Below are positions 12,459 through 17,747 of a stretch of DNA of 64,000 bases, in pieces. The notes under the pieces were generated by a model. It worked only from the letters and a program-made list of their open reading frames with translations, was not told the origin of the DNA and ran no database searches. Location of the stretch: contig NZ_JOMR01000001.1 in assembly GCF_000711195.1 (NCBI RefSeq), positions 1,302,001-1,366,000 on the forward strand. Reading direction: 5' to 3'. The position numbers and the translations under genes were made by a program. This DNA is from Thiomicrospira pelophila DSM 1534. Lineage in GTDB: Bacteria; Pseudomonadota; Gammaproteobacteria; Thiomicrospirales; Thiomicrospiraceae. Within the stretch, counting starts at the first letter, position 1. Each line of letters starts with the position of its first letter.

Positions 12459-13394
12459 CTACTTACGATTCCGCCTAGTGCGCGCCTTACGCTCCGCATC
12501 ATGAATCTCTTTTAAACGCGCTTTCTCAGCTTCTGCAGCTTCCGCTCTAGCAACTTCAACTTGTGTCATCTCTGGCGTTTCTAACGTAATTGGCCCCAAC
12601 TTTCCATCGCGCAATTCGGTGATTAAAATCCGGCTGACCTTATCCCAATCCACCGAGCCGCCTTTTTGCATACAACCGCGTTTTTTGCCAATCAACGCCA
12701 ACAATTCTTCGTCGTGCTCTGGCAATTCATCCAATTTATAACGTTCTTTCAACGCATCTGGGTAGTTTTTCAACAGGTAATCAGCGGCAAACAAAGTAAT
12801 GTCGATAAAATCAAACGCCGTGTCTTTAATCGCGCCGGTAATCGCCAAACGATTGCCACATTCTGGCGGCGTTAACTTAGGCCACAAAAACCCAGGCGTA
12901 TCAGTCAGGGTCATATTGTTCGCTAACTTAATACGTTGCTGAGATTTGGTCACACCCGCCTCGTTGCCAGTTCGAGCAATCGTGCGGCCAGCTAAGGTAT
13001 TAATCATAGTGGATTTGCCCACATTCGGAATCCCCATAATCATCGCGCGGCCACCTCGAATCGCCAAATCACGATCACCCATTAACTGCTCACACAGTTT
13101 CAATAAGCTTTTAATATGTTCAGGATGTTGCGACGTCATCGGCAGCGCACGCACGCCCTTCTGCTGTTCAAAATGCTCAACCCACATTTGAGTAATGGCC
13201 GGATCAGCCAAATCGGCCTTGTTCAACACCTTAATGCAAGGCGTTTCGCCACGCAGCCCATTCACCAACGGGTTTTCGCTCGAAAACGGAATGCGCGCAT
13301 CCAGCAACTCAATAATCACATCCACCTGCGGCATCACCTCAGCAATGTCTTTGCGGGCCTTGTGCATGTGTCCAGGAAACCAATTTATCGCCAT
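12459..13394 (-). CDS. ylqF: ribosome biogenesis GTPase YlqF/RbgA
   Basis: A circularly permuted GTPase of 311 residues. The G4 motif NKAD (58-61) comes before the Walker A motif GIPNVGKS (121-128) and G3 DTPG (165-168). The N-terminus WFPGHMHKARK is the YlqF/RbgA signature. The tail is basic and Ala/Glu-rich (EAAEAEKARLKEIHDAERKARTRRNRK), suited to binding rRNA. In Bacillus the homologue completes the 50S subunit. It borders the accessory block at 13.4-16.5 kb. Confidence 0.93.
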   Translation of the reverse strand: MAINWFPGHMHKARKDIAEVMPQVDVIIELLDARIPFSSENPLVNGLRGETPCIKVLNKADLADPAITQMWVEHFEQQKGVRALPMTSQHPEHIKSLLKLCEQLMGDRDLAIRGGRAMIMGIPNVGKSTMINTLAGRTIARTGNEAGVTKSQQRIKLANNMTLTDTPGFLWPKLTPPECGNRLAITGAIKDTAFDFIDITLFAADYLLKNYPDALKERYKLDELPEHDEELLALIGKKRGCMQKGGSVDWDKVSRILITELRDGKLGPITLETPEMTQVEVARAEAAEAEKARLKEIHDAERKARTRRNRK

Positions 13395-13431
13395 CTAATT
13401 TTTCTCATTTATTTTATTAACTCTGGGCATT

Positions 13432-13640
13432 TTAGCCTCTTCGACTTGAATCTGGCTCTTGTTGGCGATCCCTCATAAAGTCATTACTGACACCTTCCGA
13501 CTCAAACCAATCATCCCGACTCTGTTCAACTGGCGTGATAATACGTGATTTTGTGGCATCATTTTGGGCTTTAGTATCACCAGAGCCCTCAACCATAAAA
13601 TCTTCAGGCATGGATACCAGCAAATCAAAAGCGTTAGCAA
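13432..13640 (-). pseudogene. remnant of one or two toxin-antitoxin antitoxin/regulator genes
   Basis: The frame encodes KTLANAFDLLVSMPEDFMVEG and then SRIITPVEQSRDDWFESEG. The first piece resembles the end of an XRE-type helix-turn-helix domain. The second resembles the C-terminal, toxin-binding tail of AbrB/MazE-type antitoxins. Neither domain is complete and a stop codon sits just upstream in the same frame; a frame change there would extend the first piece (ISKP...). A TTG at 13623 could start a 63-residue peptide, but there is no ribosome site. It is best read as decayed DNA in an accessory block. Confidence 0.35.
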
Positions 13641-13678
13641 GGGTTTTTAGGCTTAGATTTCAACACCAAGTTATGGGC

Positions 13679-14098
13679 TTATTTGCTCTCTACGAAGCCT
13701 TGCTGAACACTACCTCTAACAGGGCGTGACAGAAAAGTTTTAATTATAAGTTTAAGCGTAAAAGGCGCTTCTCTGTTCCACGGCCAGAGTGAGACTAGAC
13801 GTGCCATTGCGCAATAACCAAATACGACTTGCGCCCAAGTGCCAATCAATGGCGCCCAATACAACCACTGCATGATTCCTGGAAAAGCCACGATAAGAAG
13901 CAATAAATACCAAAAACGCACCTGAACCGGAAAAGCTTTAATGCTTTTCTCACGTATAACGTAGTGAATTAGTTGAAATATGGTTAGACCGATGGCTAAG
14001 ATAAACCCTAATTCATTTCCTAAGACACCAACAGTAAGAAGTAACACTGTAACCAGCCAATACCACCAACCCATATCTTTAAATTCAAACATAAACAT
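13679..14098 (-). CDS. small integral membrane protein of unknown function
   Basis: The 139-residue protein has about four hydrophobic helices (WWYWLVTVLLLTVGVLG, ELGFILAIGLTIFQLIHYV, VRFWYLLLLIVAFPGIMQWLYW, TWAQVVFGYCAMARLVSLW) and a short basic C-terminal tail (FLSRPVRGSVQQGFV). No catalytic motif is visible. Start choice is between two nearby ATGs (MFMFEF). It lies in the accessory block on the same strand as the cassette genes and has no clear partner. Confidence 0.6.
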   Translation of the reverse strand: MFMFEFKDMGWWYWLVTVLLLTVGVLGNELGFILAIGLTIFQLIHYVIREKSIKAFPVQVRFWYLLLLIVAFPGIMQWLYWAPLIGTWAQVVFGYCAMARLVSLWPWNREAPFTLKLIIKTFLSRPVRGSVQQGFVESK

Positions 14099-14106
14099 AA
14101 ATATTT

Positions 14107-14150
14107 CCCTTTAGCGCGTAAAAAGGGGACGCTACCCTTTTCTATTAGCC
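14107..14150 (-). other. possible decayed attC site / hairpin after the 211-residue gene
   Basis: On the minus strand the sequence begins GGCTAAT (overlapping the stop codon), forms an AAAAGGG/CCCTTTT stem and ends near GCGCTAAAG. GGCTAAT is one base from GGCTAAC, the complement of the TTAGCC that begins this putative cassette. The right-hand core is poor, so it could also be a plain terminator hairpin. Confidence 0.3.
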
Positions 14151-14780
14151 ATAAATGCTCTTGCGATGAAGGTGCGACAGCAAAGACACCTCGCCTTCTT
14201 CACGCGACTCCGCAAGCTTTTGTGATAATTCATCATCAAGATTATCTGATGGGTATAGCTCTTGTTGTGCTTCGATAATCTCTGGCGAGCCTGGCAAGTG
14301 CGCTTGCGTGTGATCTTGAAGTAAGTCTAAATATGCGTTAACGCGTTCTATGGATTCGGAGAGGAATCGACCAAAAGGCAAAAAGCCCTCATAGACTCTT
14401 GACCCTACTAGAACACGGAGTTCAAGTTTTGCTGATTCGTAACGTTCTAGTGCCCGTGCAAACTTTTCGATTTTGTCCTTATACGCTTCAGCTTCTAACA
14501 GGCGCCAGCGTTCATTTTCTGTTGTGTGAACTGTTTCTTCGTCTGTGAATTGGCGCTTTTCATAAGACCATAATGGTTGCCGTAGTTTGCGTGCCGCTTC
14601 ATATACTAAGTGACTTTCTTTTACGAGCACTTTTGCTGCTGCGTAGACTTCCTTTCCCACAATATCCCTCTTCCATGCTCTTAGCCCGTATATGCCAACG
14701 AAGATTGTCACAAGTGCCGCAACACCCAACAGTGTATCTTTGATCAACGAAACCCAATCCATTAATGCTTGGTCAGGCAA
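14145..14780 (-). CDS. membrane-anchored helical protein of unknown function
   Basis: The 211-residue protein has one N-terminal transmembrane helix (LLGVAALVTIFVGIYGLRAW) and a cytoplasmic, highly charged helical part with probable coiled coil (about 85-150). I do not recognise the family; proteins of this plan are common as unknown cargo of genomic islands. The gene lies immediately downstream of the attC-like site. AAGGAGAAAACC stands before the start region, so it could be expressed as a cassette gene. Confidence 0.55.
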   Translation of the reverse strand: MPDQALMDWVSLIKDTLLGVAALVTIFVGIYGLRAWKRDIVGKEVYAAAKVLVKESHLVYEAARKLRQPLWSYEKRQFTDEETVHTTENERWRLLEAEAYKDKIEKFARALERYESAKLELRVLVGSRVYEGFLPFGRFLSESIERVNAYLDLLQDHTQAHLPGSPEIIEAQQELYPSDNLDDELSQKLAESREEGEVSLLSHLHRKSIYG

Positions 14781-14796
14781 TGGTTTTCTCCTTTTT

Positions 14797-14855
14797 GGCT
14801 AACGCCTCCGTAATAGGCGAGCTTGCGAGCGTCCTAATTGACGCGTTTGTTAGGC
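14797..14855 (-). other. attC-like recombination site (59-bp element)
   Basis: On the minus strand the element starts with GCCTAAC (14855-14849), two bases past the TAA of the TIGR04141 gene, and ends with GTTAGCC (14803-14797), exactly 59 bp in all. The outer 7-mers pair with one mismatch. The inner boxes TAATAGGCG and AATTAGGACG can pair with single extrahelical bases, as in folded attC sites. GCCTAAC is the exact complement of GTTAGGC found just before the gene, as expected for the two ends of one cassette. The first 15 bases resemble Vibrio cholerae repeats (AACAAACGC..CAA). Confidence 0.6.
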
Positions 14856-16439
14856 AATTAAGTAATATTGATTTTGGCAAGTTCAACTTTAAAACCCATA
14901 TTAATTAATCTCCTTGCGTGATGCCGAAGATTTACTTTGGAAAAAAATGGCAAATGAAGATCTCCAGCATTCTTTTGCATGATAGCTAGAACAATTCTGT
15001 ATTTTCGAGGACTATCTTCACTGTTAAAATTTACACTCAAATACGTTTTCTCTAGGTGCTTATTAACTTGATCTTGCACGCTAGGGTCATTCATAAGAAA
15101 GTCGGTTGCAACAGATGCTTGTGAAAATAGGTGACTTAAAACAGATGAAGATCCATATTTTTTTACATGAATAAACGCATCACACTGGGAAAGCAAATCA
15201 CAAAATTCTAGGCTATTACCAGTACCTTTAGGGCGAATCCACTGCTGATCAAGAAGTGCGAAATTTTCGCCATCGGCTATTTTCCGCAAATAGTGACCTT
15301 CGTTCATTCCATTATAGGGGGGGAAATAAATTCGAGATCTGTCTAGAGAATTGAAGAAATTGTTTACAGAGTCCGAAAATTCACTATCAATCCTGTACCA
15401 TTTCCCATCATTTAAGATATAAGTTTCACCATCGAGTATTAGCTCACAATTCATGCAGTGAAAGACAGCCCAACTACCGTTATTTTTTTCTTCTGCATTA
15501 AATTTTAATATCTCTCTCCTTTTTAATGCATCAATTGTTATAGGTTTCCTAGGCTTTGATTCAGCGATATAAGTAGATAAGTCTAACTCACTATGAAAGC
15601 AAAGAGCTTGATTGTTTCTTATTTTGTAGACAAATCCAGAGAAATCATTGTAATCAATAACTTCTGGCGGAGAAATCCATACATCTTCATATTTCTCCTC
15701 ATTGAGAAGTCTAGCCATTTCTTCATTTAACTGTTGAAGCAGTGATGGATCAGAGACAAACTGTATAAAATCTACCCAAGGATATTTTTCTTCATACTTA
15801 TCATCTTCATAAGCCACAAGTAGCCTTTTTGCTAAGTCTGGGAATGTATCTAATTCGATTTCGGTATTAATTGAAACAGAGTCGCAACCTGATACTATCT
15901 CTGAGCTTTCACTATCATTGCTTTCAACCACAGCGCAGATCGATTTCAGTATCTCTTGGTCAAATTCAAAATCAAAGTCATTTACATTTGTATTCTTTGA
16001 TGTTTGCGAGCGCGTATTCAACGAAACCTTTTCCAAGGTTGATTTGTCGATAGACTTTATTTGCTCTGAATCTCCAAGATTAAGAGTTACCCTCAACCCA
16101 AAGCCACGCTCCACCATAAATGACTTTAACATTGACCTTCCATGCCCAAAGGTGAATGCGAATAGCCTATTTTCAATATTTACAACTAAGAGCCCTCTAA
16201 CGCTTTCCGACCTAAAAATATTCGGATCAATACTATTTATATCACTAAATAGCTTTGCCCATTTGGGTTCTGAGCGCGACTTTTTAATATAAAGGCCACA
16301 GGGGATTCCTTTAATTTCTATAGGAGTTCTCGTAGATAACTTGTCCTTGTCTAAGGCGTCCTCTTCAGATACGCCTTCCTTAATCAAGTAGCAAACCACA
16401 TTCAGTTTCATTCAAAGTGACTCCGTGTCGACTGCCTAA
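14803..16439 (-). mobile_element. putative integron gene cassette carrying the TIGR04141 gene
   Basis: The segment runs on the minus strand from TTAGGC (after the G at 16440) to the G of the attC-like site at 14803. It contains one gene reading towards the attC, the standard cassette layout. The sequence before the boundary (ACTAAATGTTAGGC) resembles the end of an attI or another attC. No integron integrase gene is in the window, so this would be an orphan cassette. Confidence 0.5.
14858..16411 (-). CDS. TIGR04141/DUF6119 family sporadically distributed protein
   Basis: The 517-residue protein matches the TIGR04141 (DUF6119) pattern from memory of the family: FTFGHGRSMLKS, a FGLRVTLNLGD segment, NTRSQTSKNTN, then LPDLAKRLLVAY-like text (FPDLAKRLLVAYEDDKYEEKYPWVDFI), SPPEVIDYNDFSGFVY, a GKWYRID strand and near the C-terminus DAFIHVKKYGSSSVLSHLFSQ. 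Members occur erratically in genomes, often in defence or other genomic islands; no biochemical role is established to my knowledge. The DNA is visibly more AT-rich and uses more AGA/ATA codons than the neighbours, a sign of transfer. It is flanked by integron-type core sites. Confidence 0.8.
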   Translation of the reverse strand: MKLNVVCYLIKEGVSEEDALDKDKLSTRTPIEIKGIPCGLYIKKSRSEPKWAKLFSDINSIDPNIFRSESVRGLLVVNIENRLFAFTFGHGRSMLKSFMVERGFGLRVTLNLGDSEQIKSIDKSTLEKVSLNTRSQTSKNTNVNDFDFEFDQEILKSICAVVESNDSESSEIVSGCDSVSINTEIELDTFPDLAKRLLVAYEDDKYEEKYPWVDFIQFVSDPSLLQQLNEEMARLLNEEKYEDVWISPPEVIDYNDFSGFVYKIRNNQALCFHSELDLSTYIAESKPRKPITIDALKRREILKFNAEEKNNGSWAVFHCMNCELILDGETYILNDGKWYRIDSEFSDSVNNFFNSLDRSRIYFPPYNGMNEGHYLRKIADGENFALLDQQWIRPKGTGNSLEFCDLLSQCDAFIHVKKYGSSSVLSHLFSQASVATDFLMNDPSVQDQVNKHLEKTYLSVNFNSEDSPRKYRIVLAIMQKNAGDLHLPFFSKVNLRHHARRLINMGFKVELAKINIT

Positions 16440-16641
16440 CATTTAGTACAAAACACATTTACCCTACTATTTAATATTGAACTTACTTTCAGGTAATAAT
16501 GATTTCATATTAGGTTAATCAGGGCTTAAACGTTACAACTTCGATAAATACTATCGCAAATAAAACTATTTTTCTAGATGAAATACGCATCGTAAATTTA
16601 CACCTAAACGGTCATCTGATTTAGCCTAAAAAATATAGTGG

Positions 16642-17079
16642 TTAAGGCTTATCCATTAAATAATCTTCTGCATCAATATCCGCCGTTTCGATTACGACGT
16701 TAATAGATTTTAGTCCGTGGTATTTGACTTGGGTGTGGTCGCCAAGATTGAGTGGGTGCCAGTCTGGTAGGGGTTGGTTGAAGTAGCGTAAACGGTAAGC
16801 GCAGGATTCGGGTAGCCAGTCGAATTCGGCGATGCGTTCTAGGGTTAGCGGCACACAAGTGGGCACATTCACCGAGCGGTTTTCGTAGTCGCCGCACTGC
16901 CCTGTTTCTAAGTCTGAAAATTTACACACGACCCGCGTATAAACAATCTCTTCGGTGTCTTCGTCTTGCAGTTTATGCAGGCAGCACAAACCGCAGCCGT
17001 CGCACAGGCTTTCCCATTGTGCGGGGGTGAGTTGTTCTAGCGGGGTGTCTTCCCAGTATTTAGTGGTCGCTTTCGACAT
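16642..17079 (-). CDS. ycgN: YcgN/UPF0260 cysteine-cluster protein
   Basis: From ATG 17079 the protein has 145 residues with CDGCGLCCLHKL near residue 26, further cysteines in VVCKFSD, GQCGDY and VPTCVPL, and the ending typical of the YcgN family. The Cys set probably binds a metal or Fe-S cluster; function is unknown. The start at 17079 overlaps the TGA of the upstream pseudouridine synthase by one base (TGATG), pointing to translational coupling, and GGAAAG lies before it. Longer starts at 17097 and 17115 are possible but would run into the previous gene. Confidence 0.87.
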   Translation of the reverse strand: MSKATTKYWEDTPLEQLTPAQWESLCDGCGLCCLHKLQDEDTEEIVYTRVVCKFSDLETGQCGDYENRSVNVPTCVPLTLERIAEFDWLPESCAYRLRYFNQPLPDWHPLNLGDHTQVKYHGLKSINVVIETADIDAEDYLMDKP

Positions 17080-17747
17080 CAAAACGCTTTCCATGGTTCG
17101 TTCCAAGCCGCACATTGTACCTTAAAGGCATCCGACACAAAGCGCTGGCCGCTGGTTGGCGGGCAAACGAAGGCGAAGTTTTCGCCGAATAAGCTGAATC
17201 TCAACGCATAAGCATGTAAATAGCCGCGATCTTCTTGTTCGGCTTCTTCTACCGCTTGATAACGCGCATCGCCCGCTATCGGTGCGCCTAGGCTTTTGAG
17301 CGCGACGCGGATTTGGTGGGTTTTGCCGGTATGGGGTTTAACCAAAAACGCGCGTTTATTCGGTGCGAGGCTGGCGCTGACAAATTGCGTAATCGCGGGA
17401 TTGTCCATAGTGGTGGTTAAACGGTAACTGCCGCGCCGACTGGGTAGCATGTCGCCTTTTATCCAGCCCTGCTTCTTTTTGGGTTTGTGGGTGGAGATGG
17501 CGAGATAGTATTTTTCGATTTCGCGTTGTTCAAACAAGGTTTGAAACGCTTGCGCGGAGGCGAGGGTTTTCGCCAGAATCACTAAACCCGAGGTCATTTT
17601 ATCTAACCGATGTACTGGATAAAGTGACGGCAGACTTAACTGCTGTTGTGCCAACACCACCAGGCCTGGTGCTTGTTCTGAATGGAAGTTCAAGCCCGCT
17701 GGTTTATCCAGCAACACAAAATTCGTGTTTTCAAAAATGAGATTCAT
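17079..17747 (-). CDS. RluA-family pseudouridine synthase
   Basis: The 222-residue enzyme lacks an S4 domain and has the catalytic motif HRLDKMTSGLVILAK with the essential Asp near residue 49. KPHTGKTHQIRVALKSLGAPIAGDARY, the second conserved block, follows. The size and the KPAGLNFH start put it near the TruC/RluA-like short branch; whether it acts on rRNA or tRNA cannot be said. Its stop overlaps ycgN and its start overlaps the end of alkD, so three genes form one unit. The APGLVVLAQ segment is encoded across a palindrome copy. Confidence 0.85.
   Translation of the reverse strand: MNLIFENTNFVLLDKPAGLNFHSEQAPGLVVLAQQQLSLPSLYPVHRLDKMTSGLVILAKTLASAQAFQTLFEQREIEKYYLAISTHKPKKKQGWIKGDMLPSRRGSYRLTTTMDNPAITQFVSASLAPNKRAFLVKPHTGKTHQIRVALKSLGAPIAGDARYQAVEEAEQEDRGYLHAYALRFSLFGENFAFVCPPTSGQRFVSDAFKVQCAAWNEPWKAF
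17659..17670. repeat. ACCAGGCCTGGT palindrome, in the RluA-family gene
   Basis: Exact copy, 14-bp palindrome (17658-17671), read as Pro-Gly-Leu-Val. Confidence 0.95.

Follow-up and report, generated by a model that had tools for sequence, protein, structure and literature searches.

A probable integron remnant beside ycgN

The locus described here is most probably what remains of a sedentary chromosomal integron (we put the probability at roughly 0.9), in which an attI site and a 5' stub of the integrase gene, intI, directly adjoin a complete gene cassette. It lies within a 64,000-nucleotide stretch of DNA from Thiomicrospira pelophila DSM 1534 (contig NZ_JOMR01000001.1, positions 1,302,001 to 1,366,000), hereafter the window, whose numbering is used throughout. 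The features of the locus, with the evidence for each, are as follows:

14121–14142, minus strand: hairpin AAAAGGGTAGCGTCCCCTTTTT in place of the rest of the second attC (sequence)
14144–14802, minus strand: probable cassette 2, starting TTAGCC, with R'' GGCTAAT at 14150–14144 and the rest of its attC missing (6/7 complementary ends)
14145–14780, minus strand: gene for a 211-aa protein that has a hydrophobic stretch at its N-terminus, TTG start as listed; cargo of the probable cassette 2 (ORF; homologues)
14797–14855, minus strand: attC, 59 bp (covariance model, 26.4 bits, E = 4 × 10−4 in the window)
14855–14849 and 14803–14797, minus strand: attC core sites R'' GCCTAAC and R' GTTAGCC, respectively (read from the sequence)
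14803–16439, minus strand: gene cassette 1, running for 1637 bp from G|TTAGGC as far as the G of R' (matching ends; Pseudomonas saudimassiliensis has a 90%-identical gene as one cassette of an array)
14858–16411, minus strand: TIGR04141/DUF6119 gene, 517 aa, cargo of cassette 1 (NCBIfam, 585 bits; Pfam PF19614, 479 bits)
16433–16515, plus strand: attI remnant, crossover between 16439 and 16440 (profile E = 1 × 10−7; alignment)
16544–16624, plus strand: 5' stub of intI, in which the ATG start has become ATA and 26 codons precede an in-frame stop (colinear match to the same profile, E = 0.002)
16642–17115, minus strand: gene of the ycgN family, the host DNA bordering the intI end (congeners G004 and G006 have it joined to the same stub)

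The attC site

The element behind the TIGR04141 gene, GCCTAACAAACGCGTCAATTAGGACGCTCGCAAGCTCGCCTATTACGGAGGCGTTAGCC (14855–14797, minus strand), had been proposed as attC-like in a sequence-only reading of the window, and its anatomy proved to be as described there. GTTAGGC lies upstream of the gene, and GCCTAAC and GTTAGCC downstream; the element is exactly 59 bp long and begins two bases past the TAA stop codon (stop at 14858–14860, R'' from 14855); the cassette ends are complementary, GTTAGGC at 16440–16434 being the exact reverse complement of R'' GCCTAAC at 14855–14849; and pairing leaves extrahelical bases, the inner arms (CGT.AAT.AGG.CG) forming 11 bp with three such bases. R'' and R' match at six of seven positions. 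Both the placement of the attC close behind the ORF, with R'' 2 bp past the ORF end, and the start complementary to R'', with its boundary at G|TT, are those of an integron cassette.

A covariance-model search had been named in advance as a possible refutation of the attC assignment; in the event, it favoured it. The model was our own, built from 16 attCs of other genomes with that of the window left out: eight came from the P. saudimassiliensis array, from which the TIGR04141 cassette's own attC was excluded, seven from integrons in the family to which the window belongs, and one from a further gammaproteobacterium. The 14797–14855 site ranks first in the window, and again in the whole genome (E = 0.013; next best E = 1.1); it is the only credible attC in the complete 2.1-Mb genome. 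With the same model, attCs of the comparison arrays score about 15–41 bits. RNAalifold returned no consensus for the alignment of attC arms; the canonical pairing was then supplied by hand and tested, whereupon 76.6% of cells paired versus 38–40% when the alignment was slid by one column, with compensatory changes in 34 cells versus 16 in shuffles. Moreover, the pattern GCCTAAC-N40-50-GTTAGSC occurs once in the window versus 0.01 expected from dinucleotide shuffles, and the inner-arm pairing is equalled by ~1% of shuffles of the inner sequence. Rfam gave no match anywhere in the window.

Free folding of the 59-mer did not yield the attC fold, which is not the minimum-energy one: it is computed at about −4 (top strand) or −5.5 (bottom strand) kcal/mol versus about −10 kcal/mol for a competing two-hairpin fold. 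Because its hairpin is so weak, the site, although an attC by descent, is possibly now a poor recombination substrate. The weak hairpin, and the occurrence of a single site, might also be cited for the element being a chance palindrome, a reading to which we give practically no credence: the covariance score and the shuffles speak against it, as do the homologous cassette elsewhere and the adjacent attI described below.

The cassettes and their cargo

Two close relatives of the TIGR04141 gene came to light when 84,980 genomes were scanned. In P. saudimassiliensis (L014), a gene with 90% amino acid identity sits between the attCs of a nine-attC array that adjoins a truncated IntI (140 bits to TIGR02249). 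In Marinomonas transparens (L015), where identity is also 90%, homology runs from TTAGG to GCCTAA, i.e. it coincides with the cassette ends, and no attC remains at the gene. Relative to the Marinomonas copy, dN is 0.053 and dS is 0.80 (dS range 0.80–1.37); by codon comparison, the gene is shown to be still under purifying selection. The window and P. saudimassiliensis cassettes have the same R'', up to which their DNA is about 83% identical; beyond R'', the attCs of the window (14797–14855, 59 bp) and of L014 (7557–7641, 85 bp) are unrelated, a pattern suggestive of an attC swap at that point. The P. saudimassiliensis array thus resembles the window locus in its cassette gene and R'', and differs from it in its nine attCs and in an attC related to the 59-bp site only in R''.

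As for the role of the cargo, PADLOC gave no match, no relative of the protein was found among solved structures, its AlphaFold model is uninformative (pLDDT 34), and no relevant paper was found that names the family. Viral contigs and Escherichia coli yielded no close relatives; those on plasmids are only 26–32% identical, and three of their neighbourhoods have no partner gene in common.

The segment carrying the 211-aa gene is a probable second cassette with a broken attC. The gene comes directly after the 59-bp attC, and its GGCTAAT overlaps its own stop codon; with the covariance model, the attC of this cassette attains just 3.6 bits. Homologues of the protein occur in G032 (50% identity), G028 and G056; the last of these is distant (21% identity, E = 8 × 10−6) and has a full attC behind it, which was among the 16 used in training the model. 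The hairpin at 14121–14142, GGGTAGCGTCCCC, recurs as the same 21–24 bp in G410, in inverted orientation and 0.7 kb apart (L095 4689–4712 and 5396–5416); it is perhaps a REP-like element.

The attI remnant and the truncated integrase gene

A profile of the attI/intI 5' region was built from nine intact regions of the family. The attI of intact family integrons aligns with 16433–16515 (AACATTTAGTATAAGGCA on the plus strand), its crossover sequence being written ACTAAATG|TT, and the first codons of the family intI align with 16544–16589. As in a complete integron, attI thus stands next to a divergent intI, although the latter is truncated: the stub is oriented like the intI of an integron, its reading direction leading away from the cassettes, and stops at 16622–16624, directly before the ycgN-family gene. 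Taken alone, the stub is short, with a dozen initial codons aligning, and its E-value of 0.002 in the window is modest evidence for a former intI; in G004, the evidence is strong. The profile finds the whole region in G004 (E = 8 × 10−27) and the intI stub alone in G006 (E = 0.01). The joint between truncated stub and ycgN is common to the window's genome (G000), G004 and G006, and therefore shows, if descent was vertical and the locus did not move horizontally, that intI would have been lost in their common ancestor. Alongside the intact integrons of the family, ycgN, ylqF and their neighbours are not found; the position beside ycgN is not one shared with intact integrons of other genera.

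The sequence-only reading had noted that no integrase is present, and this holds for the complete genome, in which nothing exceeds the TIGR02249 cut-off and the intact intI of a complete integron is thus missing; four matches below the cut-off are pieces of one XerC-like and one XerD-like protein. IntI over the cut-off was found in 0/9 genomes of the genus; across the family, IntI is present in 17 of 63 genomes.

As far as the attI crossover, the DNA of G004 follows that of the window; it then gives way to a different cassette, with an ORF of up to 413 aa and an R'' (GGCTAAC) that matches its start (TTAGCC). The 5' half of its attC is 93–98% identical to attCs of other integrons; the 3' half is altered, and the whole scores 9.6 bits. 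The kinship of G000, G004 and G006 was judged from a few genes. On the other side of the cassettes, a tract at 13240–14112, which starts inside ylqF and extends to the cassettes, shows about 93% identity to G004 (L112) in a background of about 75–80%; this indicates that the lineages of G000 and G004 have recently exchanged DNA here. The ylqF–ycgN interval (13394–16642 in the window; L073, L075 and L076) is a variable spot, which holds toxin–antitoxin-like gene pairs in G002, G006 and G008, and integron cassettes in G000 and G004.

Origin of the locus

The sequence-only reading had left open whether the cassette is the relic of an integron or an insertion from one elsewhere. The first of these stands and the second does not: the cassette directly adjoins attI and the 5' stub of intI, and we therefore regard the relic as being in situ. 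In its favour we count the attC, the complementary cassette ends, the P. saudimassiliensis cassette, the attI and stub in the correct divergent arrangement, the recurrence of both in G004 beside another cassette, and the distribution of IntI, which is missing from this genome and from the nine of the genus but occurs in 17 of the family's 63; against it count the single scoring attC, the second being missing, the weak attC fold, the shortness of the stub, and the unshared position beside ycgN. A single cassette with no integrase and a G|TT junction could also have been expected had an integrase acting in trans inserted the cassette at a secondary, non-integron site (attG-type), so that the locus was never an integron, and such insertions are known to occur (PMC12444791). 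However, an attG insertion point is neither attI nor attC, and here it is an attI homologue with a colinear intI stub, in congeners too; we consider this origin very improbable. It had been our initial working hypothesis, and was dropped once the flank matched the attI of relatives.

For the remnant of a sedentary integron, the following course of events can be envisaged. IntI would once have inserted promoterless cassettes at the attI (16433–16515) by attI × attC recombination at G|TT, as the junctions suggest. Later, intI would have been deleted to about 26 codons, in an ancestor common to at least two congeners if inheritance was vertical. Left over would be the attI, one complete cassette (the TIGR04141 gene with its 59-bp attC) and, probably, the second cassette with its broken attC. 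As the genome contains no IntI, the cassette can presumably no longer move, unless an integrase is supplied in trans.

Relation to known systems

The locus belongs to the known kind of degraded integrons; unusually, its attI and a stub of intI survive. CALINs have been proposed to be degraded integrons (PMC9024848), and the locus resembles them in being chromosomal, with few cassettes and an attC with no integrase gene nearby. Unlike them, it has one scoring attC, the second being broken, which falls below the default threshold of at least two, and it retains the attI and stub, so that its origin from an integron is directly visible. IntegronFinder 2 ignores single-attC cases by default, yet these can be genuine; additionally, it does not detect attI outside class 1 (PMC9024848). 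In Xanthomonas, too, an ancestral platform has lost intI in some lineages and kept its cassettes; there, the same intI lesion usually means identical arrays, and CALIN cassettes are mobilisable in trans (PMC12444791), whereas the species that share the stub described here carry different first cassettes. The intact integrons of the family (e.g. in G404, G406, G017 and G024) have a homologous attI/intI 5' region, and attCs of 60–61 bp are common in them; they differ from the window locus in their intact IntI, their arrays of several cassettes and their other chromosomal places.

Possible cassette turnover at abandoned attI sites

Degraded integrons being already known, the part worth following is the possible turnover of cassettes at relic attI sites. 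The surviving attI and stub allow the path from integron to orphan cassette to be read in one locus, and orthologous relics in several species make cassette exchange at an abandoned attI testable, a matter relevant to the persistence of cassette genes where a genome has no integrase. Many genomes of the family have, at additional places, attI-like sites that no intact intI adjoins. Fourteen were examined (L160–L173, in G031, G426, G412, G407, G029, G023, G404, G024, G017, G401, G028 and G010); in these, intI is decayed or missing, and most have attCs on the cassette side. Two further orthologous sets were recognized from the integrase side, namely G031/G426/G412 (81–87% identity over 2.5 kb) and G017/G024 (89%), with no recognizable IntI left at the sites of either set and unrelated first cassettes within each. 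An intact intI is present elsewhere in the genomes of G017 and G024; none of G031, G426 and G412 has an IntI over the cut-off. All junctions read (thirteen relics, the window and G004) have the form ..TAAATG|TT, and a first cassette's own R'' with an attC-like continuation was seen in 9/15 relic loci versus 6/204 mismatched pairs.

Two accounts of these differences have to be weighed, both of which take the locus to be a relic. The TIGR04141 cassette may have entered the abandoned attI after intI was lost, through an integrase acting in trans, which we hold to be a serious possibility at somewhat less than even odds. The intI stub is common to G000 and G004, whose first cassettes are nonetheless different ones, each complete and with precise junctions, and first cassettes differ likewise within the two orthologous sets, in one of which (G017 and G024) an intact intI persists elsewhere. 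Additionally, the dS of the cassette gene (0.80 versus Marinomonas) is no more than that of the flanking genes between G000 and G004 or G006 (0.86–1.46), although these values are near saturation and any dating from them is suggestive at most. The local exchange at 13240–14112 between the G000 and G004 lineages means, moreover, that the locus is not strictly vertical in descent, and, apart from the 5' stub at 16544–16624, no intI fragment remains in G000. Arrays can also be pruned from a common ancestor: the differing cassettes of the relatives may derive from one long ancestral array pruned differently in each, with no integrase needed, and to this we assign nearly an even chance. Distal array pieces that L160 shares with L161 or L162 lie at differing distances from attI, and in the G004 attC, the 3' half has been altered in a way that resembles the product of an illegitimate deletion. 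Pruning would, however, have to hit the exact G|TT boundary every time, all the junctions read being precise, and many of the first cassettes are complete. On sequence grounds, the precise junctions and complete first cassettes would favour insertion in trans, and the partly shared distal pieces would allow pruning. We tentatively propose, again at rather less than even odds, that attI sites in this family outlive intI and keep receiving cassettes in trans, such that integrase-less docks, scattered over several places per genome, may swap their first cassette after intI loss and the locus may go on evolving without an integrase of its own.

A short element with the inverted repeat GACCGC..GCGGTC, followed by CGGGGTGG, lies directly at the attI in L163, L164 and L170, and is also found in L092 and L094–L096; it is perhaps an ORF-less first cassette.
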